From positions 1 through 41,598 of the forward strand of contig JAGBEA010000002.1 of NCBI GenBank assembly GCA_017937195.1: a stretch of 41,598 bases of DNA. The letters run 5' to 3'. This document shows, piece by piece, positions 2,860-21,514 of this stretch (positions are counted from its first letter, which is position 1; each line of letters starts with the position of its first letter). The DNA comes from Oscillospiraceae bacterium. GTDB lineage: Bacteria > Bacillota > Clostridia > Oscillospirales > Oscillospiraceae. The notes beneath the pieces were generated by a model. It was not told the DNA's origin. It worked only from the letters and a program-made list of their open reading frames with translations, and did no database searches. Made by a program: the position numbers and the translations under genes.

Positions 2860-3169
2860 CTTGTATTCATGTAACAAGAAAACTATGATTTTCGTCTTAG
2901 AACGAACGGGGCTGATTTCATTGTTTATGCGACGCAATTTCTGAGCTGATCTCTGTGGCAAAAACGCCCGCCACCAGAGGCTATTCCGGTCGGAAGCACT
3001 TTTAATATACAGAATTTCATCCCACACAAATCCCAAAAGACGAAAGTAGTGCCTGAAACAAACAGGGCGAAAGAGTTCCAAAGAGGAACCGCAGGAGTGC
3101 CGGAAAGCGCCAAAGAGGGCGCAAGAGTCCTCGCTGAAGGTTCAGACATAGGTTTGGGAGCAGGATGCC
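2860..3169. other. Intergenic stretch, no gene seen
   Basis: Between the AlbA_2 promoter and the tRNA-like remnant I see no ribosome binding site followed by a credible frame on either strand. Open frames here have low-complexity or tRNA-shadow translations. It may be debris from an integration event, but no named element is recognisable. Confidence 0.4.
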
Positions 3170-3237
3170 GGGAGTTCGAGTCTCCCCACTCGGACCAAAG
3201 AGTCAAAGTTTACCTCAATGGTAAACTTTGGCTCTTT
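3170..3237 (+). other. tRNA 3'-end remnant (T-arm, acceptor strand, CCA) with hairpin
   Basis: GGGAG-TTCGAGT-CTCCC (3170-3186) is a perfect T-arm. It is followed by CACTCGG, a discriminator A and CCA (3195-3197), as at the 3' end of a tRNA gene. The expected 5' acceptor strand CCGAGTG is absent from the 100 bases upstream, so the tRNA is not complete. A strong hairpin follows at once (AAAGAG and CAAAGTTTACC arms, closing about 3237), like a tRNA terminator. A tRNA 3' end without its 5' half fits an attachment site left by an integrating element. Confidence 0.45.
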
Positions 3238-3248
3238 CTGCTTGCATA

Positions 3249-3359
3249 GGAGACTCGAAGTTCTGTCGTGACTTGCCGGTGGCAAGTCACCGCGCCAGCA
3301 CGAATGTTGGCGCGCTCTATGATTTGTGCCGCCCGCGGCACAAATGCAAACGAGTCTCC
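3249..3359. repeat. Multi-hairpin palindromic element
   Basis: Outer inverted arms GGAGACTCG (3249-3257) and CGAGTCTCC (3351-3359) enclose three consecutive hairpins: GTGACTTGCC/GGCAAGTCAC (3268-3290), GCGCCAGCA/TGTTGGCGC (3292-3313) and ATTTGTGCCG/CGGCACAAAT (3322-3345). The 16-mer CGAGTCTCCCCACTCG at 3351-3366 repeats the tRNA remnant sequence at 3177-3192. It looks like a small palindromic mobile or extragenic repeat; no named family was recognised. Confidence 0.6.
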
Positions 3360-3370
3360 CCACTCGCGCC

Positions 3371-3398
3371 TTGACACTTTTTTGAACTGTGATATACT
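3371..3398 (+). promoter_or_regulatory. Promoter of the structured RNA
   Basis: TTGACA (3371-3376) and TATACT (3393-3398) with a 16-base spacer put the transcription start near 3405, where the first conserved-looking stem begins. Confidence 0.7.
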
Positions 3399-3404
3399 TC
3401 AACC

Positions 3405-3590
3405 GATGAGTCACACTGCTCATCGCTGATTGCAGAGTGTTTCATCTGAGGAAGAGGAGCTAAGTTCTACACTAAACTCTGGTGCGGTACTGCAACAGTG
3501 GGTATTGTTCCTCCTTAAAATGCCCTCAGGACAATACCGATAATGAATCATTGAGCCGCTTACTGTGATTACACCAGTAAGCGGTTTTTT
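3405..3590 (+). ncRNA. Structured non-coding RNA of about 186 nt
   Basis: The segment has its own promoter and ends in a clean intrinsic terminator (CCGCTTACTG/CAGTAAGCGG, then TTTTTT at 3585-3590). Visible stems are GATGAG/CTCATC (3405-3424), TTGCAG/CTGCAA (3430-3435 with 3490-3495) and GGTATTGT/ACAATACC (3501-3508 with 3531-3538). A possible closing pairing joins GATGA at 3405 to TCATT near 3548. No frame with a ribosome binding site spans it. Size and layout recall clostridial structured RNAs such as the raiA motif, but I cannot confirm a family. It lies directly upstream of an RNase III-like gene, which may or may not be meaningful. Confidence 0.6.
3556..3590 (+). terminator. Terminator of the structured RNA
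   Basis: Ten-base stem CCGCTTACTG/CAGTAAGCGG with a nine-base loop, followed by six T residues. Confidence 0.85.
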
Positions 3591-3612
3591 ATCGTAAGAG
3601 GTGAAATGGCTG

Positions 3613-3641
3613 TTGACCGAGTTTAAAAGCGGTGGTACAAT
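3613..3641 (+). promoter_or_regulatory. Promoter of the RNase III-like gene
   Basis: TTGACC (3613-3618), 17-base spacer, TACAAT (3636-3641). It implies a leader of about 210 nt before the ATG at 3858. The leader holds CCGACA/TGTCGG arms and a weak terminator-like GGCAT/ATGCC hairpin followed by TTTTT (about 3819-3835), so attenuation or self-cleavage control is possible. Confidence 0.6.
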
Positions 3642-3857
3642 ATCATTATAAAAGGCATCATTCTTCAAATTTGGGTCATTGTTTCTGTATGTTTGTTCCG
3701 GCTTATGCAAGTAAACCACCGCAAACACCCAAAAACAACGAATTAAATTTGATTTATGCTGTCCGACAATGGCTGCCCCAAAGAAAGAGGGGGAAGTGTT
3801 TTTTGTCGGGCATTATTATGCCTTTTTGTAACCAATTACAGAAAGGATTTTTTTATT

Positions 3858-4916
3858 ATGGAACAAAATGACCTGATCTTTATCCAAGAGCAAATCGGCT
3901 ACCCTTTCAACAATCCGGACTTGCTGCAGCAGGCATTCACCAGACGCTCGTATGCCGAGGAAAACGGTGGAGAGCACAACGAGGTGCTGGAGTTTATCGG
4001 GGATAAAGTGCTGGACTTTGTGGTGGTGAAGCTGTTGACCCAGCACTACGGATGGCTACATAGCCAAGAAAAAGACTTTGATCCTAACGAAGATTGGGAT
4101 GAGTTCGCCTGCGAAATGAGCGAGGCGGAACTGACCGCACTGAAAGCCCAGCTTGTCTGCAAGAAATCGCTGTCGGAAAAAATAGACGGACTCGGCTTTG
4201 CAGAGTATCTTATCATGGGAAATGGTGACATCCGAAAGCATGTGGAGCAAAGTGCTTCTGTAAAAGAGGACTTATTTGAGGCGATAATCGGTGCAGTTGC
4301 GATCGACTGCAGCTATGATATGGAGAAGATCGAAAGCGTGGTTGAGTTGATGCTTGATACGCAAGCGATCTTCGATGACGAGGCAGCGGAAAACTATGTT
4401 GCCACGATTCAACAATGGACGCAGAGCAACTACCATCAACTTCCCGACTACAAATACATCGACCAAAGGAAGGAGTATTTCCAAACGATAAGTAACCAGA
4501 ATCCGTATGCCCGATACCGCTGTGAGCTTCAGTTGGGGGAGAAAAAACGCGCCTACAAAGGCTGGGGAGAGTCCAAGGCAGAAGCGCGGTGGGATGCTTG
4601 CCGCAACGCATACGATGCGTTGTGGGAGGAGGGTTGGTTTTCCGCCATCTACGATGAAATCGAAAATCCCAACTACGCAGAGGCCATCAGCCAGCTGGAA
4701 ATTTTGGCACGGCGCGGCTACTTTTCGATCCCTACCTACGATTTTTCCCAGACCTATGACAAGAACGGGAATCCCGTCTGGAAGAGCACTTGCCGCATAG
4801 CAGAAGAGGAAAGATCGTTTTCGGCGAAATCATCCTCCAAGAAGGACGCGAAAAAGACCGCCGCATTCAAAATGCTGCGGTATGTTCTGGACATAGAGGA
4901 GAAAATCGGGAGATGA
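3858..4916 (+). CDS. RNase III-like endonuclease with two dsRNA-binding regions
   Basis: 352 aa from the ATG at 3858, preceded by AAAGGA; an earlier in-frame ATG has no ribosome binding site. The nuclease domain (about 10-170) carries the signature HNEVLEFIGDKVLDF (40-54) and the second acidic pair D138/E141, so the metal-binding residues E42, E45, D49, D138 and E141 appear intact. About 60 residues, rich in acidic residues, separate the two motifs. Two dsRBD-like regions follow, at about 178-258 and 272-345, the second with the classic SSKKDAKKTAAFKML helix. Housekeeping bacterial RNase III is about 230 aa with one dsRBD, so this is an unusual paralogue. The next gene overlaps its stop. Confidence 0.85.
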   Translation: MEQNDLIFIQEQIGYPFNNPDLLQQAFTRRSYAEENGGEHNEVLEFIGDKVLDFVVVKLLTQHYGWLHSQEKDFDPNEDWDEFACEMSEAELTALKAQLVCKKSLSEKIDGLGFAEYLIMGNGDIRKHVEQSASVKEDLFEAIIGAVAIDCSYDMEKIESVVELMLDTQAIFDDEAAENYVATIQQWTQSNYHQLPDYKYIDQRKEYFQTISNQNPYARYRCELQLGEKKRAYKGWGESKAEARWDACRNAYDALWEEGWFSAIYDEIENPNYAEAISQLEILARRGYFSIPTYDFSQTYDKNGNPVWKSTCRIAEEERSFSAKSSSKKDAKKTAAFKMLRYVLDIEEKIGR

Positions 4917-5086
4917 GCAAGTGGTGCTACAACTACGATTCCGGTGACTACGAATACATCGAGCGTGATGGGTACAGCGTAGATCGGGGCGAGTATGTCT
5001 ATAACTGGGACGACAGCGAATACCGCCGTGAGGAAGAGGAGCGCGAGGAAGAGGCGCGCCGCCGCGAGGAAGAAGATCGCTGGTGA
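4913..5086 (+). CDS. Small highly charged hypothetical protein
   Basis: 57 aa; its ATG overlaps the RNase III-like stop in an ATGA junction, with AGGAG about 12 bases upstream, so translational coupling is likely. The first half is rich in Tyr and Asp, with YDSGDYEYIERDGY and YVYNWDDSEY forming a loose repeat. The second half (about 36-55) is an uninterrupted Glu/Arg stretch that should form a charged helix. No family recognised. A strong terminator follows, so this is the last gene of the pair and could be a partner of the nuclease. Confidence 0.65.
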   Translation: MSKWCYNYDSGDYEYIERDGYSVDRGEYVYNWDDSEYRREEEEREEEARRREEEDRW

Positions 5087-5111
5087 TCACCGCCAACCTT
5101 TATACACACAT

Positions 5112-5141
5112 AAAATCCCCGATGTTGCATCGGGGATTTTT
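5112..5141 (+). terminator. Terminator after the RNase III-like pair
   Basis: ATCCCCGATG/CATCGGGGAT stem with a three-base loop, then TTTTT. Confidence 0.85.
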
Positions 5142-5201
5142 CTGTCCGGATTTGAGGACAGCGGGGGCGGTATGCTGACAGCAGGAAGTGAGGTGCGGCA
5201 T

Positions 5202-5576
5202 ATGGAGCATACAAACTGGCGATTCGGCGTGGTTGCCAACATAACGCAGCAGCACATCGGTGAGGACGGAAATCCGCACCGCGGCACAAAAGCCTTCACG
5301 GCAGGCACGAAGGTCTACCTTGCAGGCAAGCACTGGGACAGCCGAAGCGACTCCATCAGCGTGATCGGACGCAATCGGTTCGGCAGGATCGTGCTGCAAA
5401 GTACCCCCGTCCATTGCTTGGAGCGCGTCCGGACACAGCGGATCTGCAAGCCCCATGTGCTGGCGATCATAGACTACCTGGAAACGGCGGACGGCTGGTC
5501 TTGGTGGGCGCGCACCGCCGCAGACAGAAGTGAAACAGAGCAATTTGTGAAAGCTTGGGAAAAGCGGCTGAAATAG
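5202..5576 (+). CDS. Conserved hypothetical protein
   Basis: 124 aa from the ATG at 5202, which has GAAGTGAGGTG upstream; an in-frame ATG at 5172 would give 134 aa. It has no membrane segment or signal peptide. The middle has a compact pattern GTKAFTAGTKVYLAGKHWD, and the C-terminal half is rich in Trp (DGWSWWARTAADRSETE). Similar proteins of unknown function occur in Clostridia, from memory of the pattern only. It starts after the preceding terminator, so it probably has its own weak promoter, and it ends before a convergent hairpin. Confidence 0.7.
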   Translation: MEHTNWRFGVVANITQQHIGEDGNPHRGTKAFTAGTKVYLAGKHWDSRSDSISVIGRNRFGRIVLQSTPVHCLERVRTQRICKPHVLAIIDYLETADGWSWWARTAADRSETEQFVKAWEKRLK

Positions 5577-21225: not shown

Positions 21226-21500
21226 GCAAATGCAAAAACTCCTGCCCCATGCTGCCATGGGACAGGAGTAAAAAAACTTCTGCGGTACCACCCAAATTGA
21301 CGCCAAAGCGCCCACTTTGCACGCACAACTATGCGCTCCGCCACGGTAACGGCTGCGGCTGCCGTCGATCACTACTGGGGAGATCTCCCGTTCGCATCGC
21401 CCTCGTAAGGCCATTCGCCCTGTCCTCCCCCACTGCGATCACACCATCCGCAGCTCTCTTTGCGCTTTGGGCAGGGTTACTTCTCTTACTCAACGGTTTA
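21226..21500 (-). promoter_or_regulatory. T-box leader with a tryptophan specifier
   Basis: On the minus strand the leader shows a base stem GTAAG/CTTAC, an upper stem CCCTG/CAGGG, and between them the specifier loop CGAATGGC containing the Trp codon TGG (21413-21411). The AGAGA-like AAAGAGAGC, the conserved T-box GGGTGGTACCGCAG (about 21292-21279) and a terminator with ACTCCTG/CAGGAGT arms and TTTTT (about 21275-21234) follow in order. Uncharged tRNA-Trp should favour the antiterminator and trpB2 expression. Confidence 0.92.
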
Positions 21501-21514
21501 TTGCTATTGTCTGC

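Follow-up and report, generated by a model that had tools for sequence, protein, structure and literature searches.

Riboswitches are known in which the expression platform competes with the closing stem of the aptamer, and metabolite riboswitches usually serve several gene families. In type III (ToxIN-like) toxin-antitoxin systems, an RNA element made of tandem repeats, a terminator, and an endoribonuclease gene stand in that order. Streptomyces absB, to go by the title of a reference, is reportedly a case of RNase III autoregulation. In Escherichia coli, RNase III cuts its own 5′ untranslated region (UTR) and thereby destabilizes the mRNA, as excerpts of PMC8708148 describe. In this work, we analyzed a locus in contig JAGBEA010000002.1 of an Oscillospiraceae bacterium (assembly GCA_017937195.1; the whole stretch of 41,598 nucleotides is called the window below), where a structured leader RNA precedes an accessory RNase III gene. 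As in the rnc-era transcript of E. coli, an RNase III gene has a structured 5′ UTR, which here is conserved together with the gene. Unlike in rnc-era, the enzyme is an accessory one with two predicted double-stranded RNA-binding domains (dsRBDs), the RNA is a conserved putative junction with an overlapping Shine-Dalgarno hairpin, and the genome has a separate RNase III elsewhere, with no second leader found in that genome.

With the riboswitches mentioned above, the leader shares the use of one strand by the closing stem of the folded domain (P1) and the OFF hairpin (P5), but it was found with one nuclease family only and has no Rfam match. The order of RNA element, terminator-like hairpin (with a T-run in 12 of 21 leaders), and endoribonuclease gene resembles that of type III toxin-antitoxin systems; unlike in those systems, the nuclease is of the Ribonuclease_3 rather than the ToxN type, the hairpin lies over the Shine-Dalgarno region, and no repeat family with two copies, in tandem or otherwise, was found in the leader. 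The conserved RNA structure, the overlapping P1 and P5 strands, and the linkage to the nuclease are the observed basis on which we consider it somewhat probable that the leader acts in cis as an ON/OFF switch by which the RNase III controls its own supply (autogenous control). The features of this unit are as follows:

3613–3641, + strand: promoter-like site TTGACC-N17-TACAAT of the leader/RNase III unit (site scan; expected transcription start at about 3648–3650)
3650–3857, + strand: conserved structured leader RNA, a junction plus a hairpin predicted to sequester the Shine-Dalgarno sequence (alignment, covariation, and RNA model)
3650–3658, + strand: P1, 5′ strand AAAAGGCAT, closing the putative junction (pairing in the window: AAAAGGCAU / AUGCCUUUU)
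3665–3752, + strand: long hairpin, imperfectly paired, in which the internal segments CATTGT and ACAA.GAA are invariant
3707–3710, + strand: GNRA tetraloop GCAA, in the window context UAU-GCAA-GUA
3761–3811, + strand: second junction hairpin, TGTCCGACA ... TGTCGGGCA
3818–3826, + strand: P1, 3′ strand ATGCCTTTT, with 6 nt in common with the 5′ strand of P5
3821–3846, + strand: P5 hairpin CCTTTTTGTAA/TTACAGAAAGG, which covers the Shine-Dalgarno region and has ATTTTTTT after it (terminator-like according to the scan)
3858–4916, + strand: accessory RNase III, 352 aa, with one catalytic domain and two dsRNA-binding stretches (Pfam)
4913–5086, + strand: 57-aa acidic, tyrosine-rich microprotein, overlapping the RNase III stop codon

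The region upstream of the start codon aligns across 14 copies, and the RNA model matches directly upstream of the nuclease gene in all 17 close chromosomal copies fetched (the window, G073, G319, G160, G267, two in G082, G239, G122, Rosb, Clos, G578, G639, G519, G671, G818, and G943; G319/G073 and G122/G239 are near duplicates). Across 12 leaders, 94% of the cells at 45 pairs in five helices are paired, and 19 of these pairs show two-sided changes (45 cells), a result for pairing and two-sided changes that 0 of 500 shuffles reached; sliding the partners by 1–3 columns lowers the pairing to 34–46%. Further pair types, the one such covariation measure not beyond the shuffles, were matched in 54 of 500. 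RNAalifold, run on 13 leaders without the drawn structure, gave 41 pairs, of which 18 have two-sided changes. Held-out sequences matter because the 45-pair structure was drawn from these alignments. The leaders of G671, G818, and G943, which were found in class genomes by protein search, were all matched by the RNA model (E = 7e-29, 4e-17, and 1e-24). Of the 45 pairs they keep 42, 43, and 41, where two-sided changes number 1, 10, and 5, and the leader of viral contig locus L065 keeps 40 with 15 two-sided changes, all four rows having been fitted to the RNA model, which favors pairing. These four and twelve sense rows are all that was used from alignment A5, which still includes antisense matches; such matches arise when the near-palindromic hairpin is read in reverse, and none of them was counted as a member. 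The leader counts leave out four remote nucleases with no leader at E 1 (G127, G198, G278, and G504). The tables of 21 leaders used below further omit G319 and G122 as near duplicates, L072 and L073 (both the same as L065), L071 (which resembles L070), the truncated L069, and L095 and L098, which were found later.

Single folds gave z = -4.3 for the whole window leader, -6.1 for that of G239, and -3.5 to -4.8 for the viral leaders; the first 150 nt of the window leader reach only z = -2.1, with 6 of 200 shuffles as good. Against Rfam release 15 (4227 models, raiA not being confirmed by name among them), no gathering-score match was found on the leader. The window leader had nothing up to E 5, and in the loci of 12 relatives the leader was unmatched, while the matches elsewhere were three tRNAs and one L10 leader. 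Seven sub-threshold matches in 3200–5200, none of them on the leader, were judged to be chance; the best of them, ylbH, has 26 bits (E = 0.006), where the gathering score is 50.

The leader is predicted to be a junction RNA in which P1 closes two hairpins, the longer of which is GNRA-capped. By pattern, 18 of the 21 leaders have this loop in a YAU-GNRA-GUG context (the window has GUA instead), with the variants GCAA, GAAA, GGAA, GUAA, and GCGA; the G160 and v070 leaders are without the motif, and L095 and L098 both have GCGA. Nucleotides conserved beyond pairing are those of the GNRA loop and of CAUUGU/ACAAAGAA. Because the 3′ strand of P1 can also form P5 with the Shine-Dalgarno region, P1 and P5 are mutually exclusive. 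When the best helices were chosen independently, the two overlap by at least 3 nt in 18 of 21 leaders, the exceptions being G639, G519, and v070. The best overlapping P1/P5 helices beat 300 of 300 end shuffles in 12 of 15 chromosomal leaders and 1 of 6 viral ones; at least one shuffle reached the score in 8 of the 21, and exactly one did so for v068 and for v074. The pairs of P5 vary with compensation, as at position 7 in 15 leaders (UA 4, AU 3, GC 3, UG 1, GU 1, unpaired 3), in a table whose v065 row has a poor register. The mean pair probability of P5 is at least 0.7 in 11 of 15 chromosomal leaders. A run of at least five T follows P5 in 12 of 21 leaders; among other genes that have a ribosome-binding site, the figure is 8 of 131. 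This control set, with nuclease genes among its members, comes from the same loci.

The accessory RNase III has a patchy distribution. At E 1e-20, it was found in 10 of 295 order genomes, seven below 1e-90 and three remoter (4.5e-38, 7.5e-29, and 4.4e-23). Within the genus, it was found in 2 of 32 genomes; the family sample gave 5 of 350 at E 1e-30, including one remote match, and the class sample 5 of 391 at E 1e-45. At this last threshold, the only match among 398 phylum genomes is the window's own. These samples overlap. Two further copies lie in named metagenome-assembled genomes, one from buffalo colon (Roseburia sp. RGIG7456) and one from cattle cecum (Clostridia bacterium RGIG150). The leader occurs in 7 of the 295 order genomes, in eight sense copies, and these are exactly the seven with the nuclease below 1e-90; the RNA model found no leader in the three with a remoter nuclease. 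This order-wide search scored only 9 candidates per genome under strict filters, and the test informs on absence elsewhere because those leaders, or near duplicates of them, were in the RNA model. Among the 32 genus genomes (at most 88 candidates scored in each), the leader is found in the same two as the nuclease, and a match in G311 at E = 0.79 was taken as noise. The leader thus did not turn up as a known RNA family widespread without the nuclease, the outcome by which the preliminary description of this locus had proposed to be judged: it has no Rfam match, and no nuclease-free leader was found among the 9 candidates scored in each of the 295 order genomes. The RNase III matches found in collections of phages and plasmids were all remote, and no microprotein was found there. 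One genome (G082 contig 20: L028 and L029) has two leader-nuclease copies about 14 kb apart, one beside cas3/cas8c genes and the other within a few kb of a reverse transcriptase whose best PADLOC match is RT_VI.

For the window nuclease, Pfam reports Ribonuclease_3 and two dsrm stretches, and the C-terminal region aligned in all 12 members; the two dsRBDs are called predicted because they rest on sequence profiles. E42, E45, D49, D138, and E141, which we take from motif knowledge to be catalytic, are invariant in the 12 members, of which the window is one, and also in the housekeeping copy. Another RNase III of the same genome lies on a separate contig and is 33% identical. Like the housekeeping enzyme, the accessory one has the five acidic residues intact; unlike it, it has two dsrm stretches instead of a single dsRBD, and it scores below the cut-off of the RNase III equivalog family (NCBIfam TIGR02191, 142.6 bits against 166.25). 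The window nuclease and three viral relatives match phrog_28637, a phage protein family of unknown function (E = 5e-16 to 2e-25); this profile is silent on the leader and the microprotein. Among PADLOC defense families, no match was found for the nuclease (E 0.1) or the microprotein.

The microprotein frame is intact in 7 of the 17 copies (window, G082a, G239, G122, Clos, G639, and G818). G671 has it without a standard start, Rosb has a remnant, G073 and G267 have a different small acidic frame in its place, and G319 has a truncated one. Over 40 codons of 7 sequences, 311 synonymous and 72 non-synonymous single-base differences were counted, a ratio of 0.23 against a neutral 5.19 and an omega-like value of 0.04 (pairwise counts without a tree). 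These codon differences indicate a real coding gene under purifying selection. As a companion of the nuclease, it is conserved but optional. No significant match to it was found in Pfam, PHROGs, NCBIfam, or PADLOC. In L025 and L027, the position 3′ of the RNase III is taken instead by a small acidic protein of another type, rich in Met and Asp. A 77% identical microprotein lies at L045 1743–1919 (G504). It is upstream of a remote RNase III (3856–5268), at a distance of about 2 kb, and this enzyme carries an acidic extension of its own at the N terminus, about 130 aa long. In the window, a 134-aa open reading frame (ORF; 5172–5576) lies 3′ of the microprotein gene and has no Pfam, NCBIfam, or PADLOC match.

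Relatives of the nuclease are also encoded at ten viral-contig loci, to which L095 and L098 were added later. Judging from folds, the GNRA motif, P1/P5 pairing, and position, diverged leaders of the same architecture appear to precede these genes; the RNA model matched that of L065 at E = 1.5e-6 (L072 and L073 alike). In L066, L075, L076, and L079, the nuclease gene is preceded by a pair of neighboring recombinase-like ORFs, in L079 with two small ORFs in between. Five of the ORFs were scanned with Pfam, and all have serine recombinase domains; L066 also has a holin (25.4 bits against a cut-off of 24.9). The L067 and L068 contigs stop at the nuclease stop codon, which would fit a prophage end. 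Because the distribution is patchy and the unit has a place in such prophage-like contigs, we infer that it is mobile. A SymE-type gene follows the nuclease in L066, and a GmrSD-type gene stands two genes after that of L079 (11071–12837; PADLOC HEC-05, E = 5e-148).

On chromosomes, tRNA genes lie about 130–340 bases before the nuclease copies in 4 of 16 loci scanned (L003, L004, L025, and L035, of which the last two are near duplicates). L004 has an intact tRNA-Pro(tgg) where, by our own reading, a partial tRNA-Pro-like 3′ end (about 3150–3195) precedes the window unit; ARAGORN found no tRNA in the window. Beyond this partial end lie a hairpin and CGAGTCTCCCCACTCG for the second time (copies at 3177–3192 and 3351–3366). 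The 3150–3195 stretch with the repeated CGAGTCTCCCCACTCG looks like an integration scar, and a search of the same genome found no other locus with it.

The locus is a self-contained accessory unit of promoter, structured leader, two-dsRBD RNase III, and, in some copies, microprotein. In the searched genomes, a dedicated leader that combines a long hairpin with a P1/P5 switch stands before this RNase III and before nothing else. Autogenous control is the simplest reading, and the E. coli RNase III that cuts its own 5′ UTR is a precedent for it. In the ON state, the 5′ end of the mRNA would pair with AUGCCUU, so that P1 closes the junction and the strand is held off the ribosome-binding site. 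In the OFF state, the CCUUU segment would instead pair with the Shine-Dalgarno region as P5 and mask the ribosome-binding site; in many members, P5 and the U-run would form a terminator-like hairpin that ends transcription. The likeliest signal would be the nuclease itself, binding or cutting the long GNRA-capped hairpin. In excerpts of PMC8708148, Rnt1p substrates carry an AGNN tetraloop read by the dsRBD, and target loops of bacterial RNase III are described as much less conserved. The leader resembles the Rnt1p substrates in having a hairpin with a conserved tetraloop, a possible RNase III recognition element, and differs from them in that the loop is GNRA inside YAU...GUR. Action of the nuclease could remove the 5′ half of P1, let P5 form, and stop synthesis. 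Other dsRNA occupying the enzyme would leave the leader whole and synthesis would resume, so that the leader would gauge free RNase III.

Several observations weigh against autogenous control by this switch. RNA-model scores are weak for viral L066 (E = 0.0024), L074 (0.17), and L069 (0.77), and the model finds nothing at E 1 in L067, L068, L070, and L071. It thus does not reach the majority of the viral leaders, and few candidates per genome were scored across the order; the four remote nucleases named above also have no detectable leader at E 1. The P1/P5 score was reached by 9, 29, and 105 of 300 shuffles in G160, G639, and G519 and by 48, 19, and 41 in viral v066, v067, and v070. In most chromosomal leaders P5 outweighs P1, and because the T-run is absent in 9 of 21 leaders, termination cannot be universal. 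No microprotein was found at E 0.1 in 5 of the 17 copies (G160, G082b, G578, G519, and G943). Cleavage, feedback, and a biological role in dsRNA- or phage-related control are what we infer from this architecture, and the conservation of the GNRA loop and CAUUGU/ACAAAGAA would suit a ligand or another protein as well.

This last point leads to a riboswitch-type sensor, in which a signal other than the nuclease (a small molecule, an ion, or a ribosomal or phage protein) would stabilize the junction and turn the gene on. In keeping with such a sensor, the junction resembles an aptamer and has invariant nucleotides in its loops, the expression platform overlaps it directly, and 12 of 21 leaders have the T-run. 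That the leader was found with one nuclease only in the 295 order genomes counts against a sensor of this kind, and we regard it as possible but rather unlikely. The same U-run, placed with P5 just before the ATG, would also fit an RNA of about 200 nt that ends at P5 and acts in trans as a decoy, antitoxin, or guide, with read-through setting the ratio of RNA to enzyme as in type III toxin-antitoxin systems. The pairing of RNA and nuclease across genomes and the prophage-like cargo position in viral contigs agree with this, but P5 also masks the Shine-Dalgarno region, which points to cis control, and 9 of 21 leaders are without the T-run and the leader without repeats; we hold a trans-acting leader to be distinctly unlikely. 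Structured 5′ ends can protect mRNA, and the leader could be a passive stabilizer or translation enhancer that does not switch. This is very improbable given that P5 masks the ribosome-binding site with compensating changes and shares a strand with P1 in unrelated sequences.

A broader proposal, which we put forward as doubtful, is an undescribed RNA-protein module that belongs to prophages and to bacteria of the Clostridia type, in which the GNRA junction RNA would be both regulator and dedicated partner (decoy, antitoxin, or dsRNA gauge) of a two-dsRBD RNase III tuned by the microprotein. If true, phage or antisense dsRNA would divert the nuclease from the leader and unleash its synthesis, as an RNA-sensing defense or prophage-control circuit. 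A literature search, with most subscription journals outside it, found no bacterial phage-type RNase III with such a leader among the best matches listed, which is not proof that none is published. The locus adds a structured RNA that covaries strongly, has no match in Rfam 15, and is tightly linked to one nuclease. As a tractable system, it would allow joint tests of an RNase III, its RNA switch, and a small acidic protein, and it raises the question of why prophage-like elements and some bacteria have a second dsRNA-cutting enzyme under RNA control of its own.

The locus comprises two consecutive units, of which the first (3371–3595) is an apparently free-standing 186-nt RNA and the second runs from its own promoter-like site through the leader to the RNase III and microprotein genes. 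Two further features bear on this layout:

3371–3398: promoter-like site TTGACA-N16-TATACT of the 186-nt RNA (site scan)
5112–5145, + strand: hairpin AAAATCCCCGATG..CATCGGGGATTTTT, a possible end of the second unit (by eye; not listed by the terminator scan)

Both promoter calls rest on position and near-consensus only, because the scanned region has 3 promoter-like sites against 2.2 ± 1.8 in shuffles, i.e., not above chance (terminator-like sites, 3 against 1.8 ± 1.3, likewise). By eye, TTGA...TAtAAT-like boxes stand at the matching place upstream of the leader in most alignment rows. The RNA at 3405–3595 folds at -63.3 kcal/mol against -46.6 in shuffles (z = -4.7, better than all 200) and has a GC hairpin with T6 (about 3555–3590), read by eye and not listed by the scan. 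The preliminary description had drawn this same picture, and its separate RNA unit, second promoter-like site with a long leader (about 208 nt), RNase III-like gene with intact acidic residues and a doubled RNA-binding tail, and 57-aa Tyr/Asp/Glu/Arg-rich gene overlapping the stop codon (ATGA) were all recovered.

It had further suggested that this RNA, or the leader, is the substrate or guide-like partner of the nuclease. The 186-nt RNA adjoins the nuclease unit and has a promoter-like site and a stable fold, but no relative of it was found while nuclease and leader are conserved. In the genus it was found in its own genome only (1 of 32, none in the 31 others); blastn in plasmids and phages, an exact 23-mer search (its only form) in viral contigs, nhmmer in 22 related loci, and Rfam at gathering score found no match. 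We therefore rejected it as the nuclease's partner and give such a role almost no credence. The locus picked out was the right one and the RNA favored was the wrong one: leader and RNase III co-occur in related genomes, the 186-nt RNA was not found with the nuclease in the other genomes and loci searched, and the small gene, described as coupled and conserved as a companion, is present in only some copies. The earlier observation is thus partly confirmed and its interpretation partly supported. Elsewhere in the window, a Schlafen/AlbA_2 protein with RecG-C-type ATPase-like and winged-helix regions is encoded at 1501–2811 on the - strand, adjoining the partial tRNA, and a T-box leader (100 bits) lies at 21255–21502 on the - strand.

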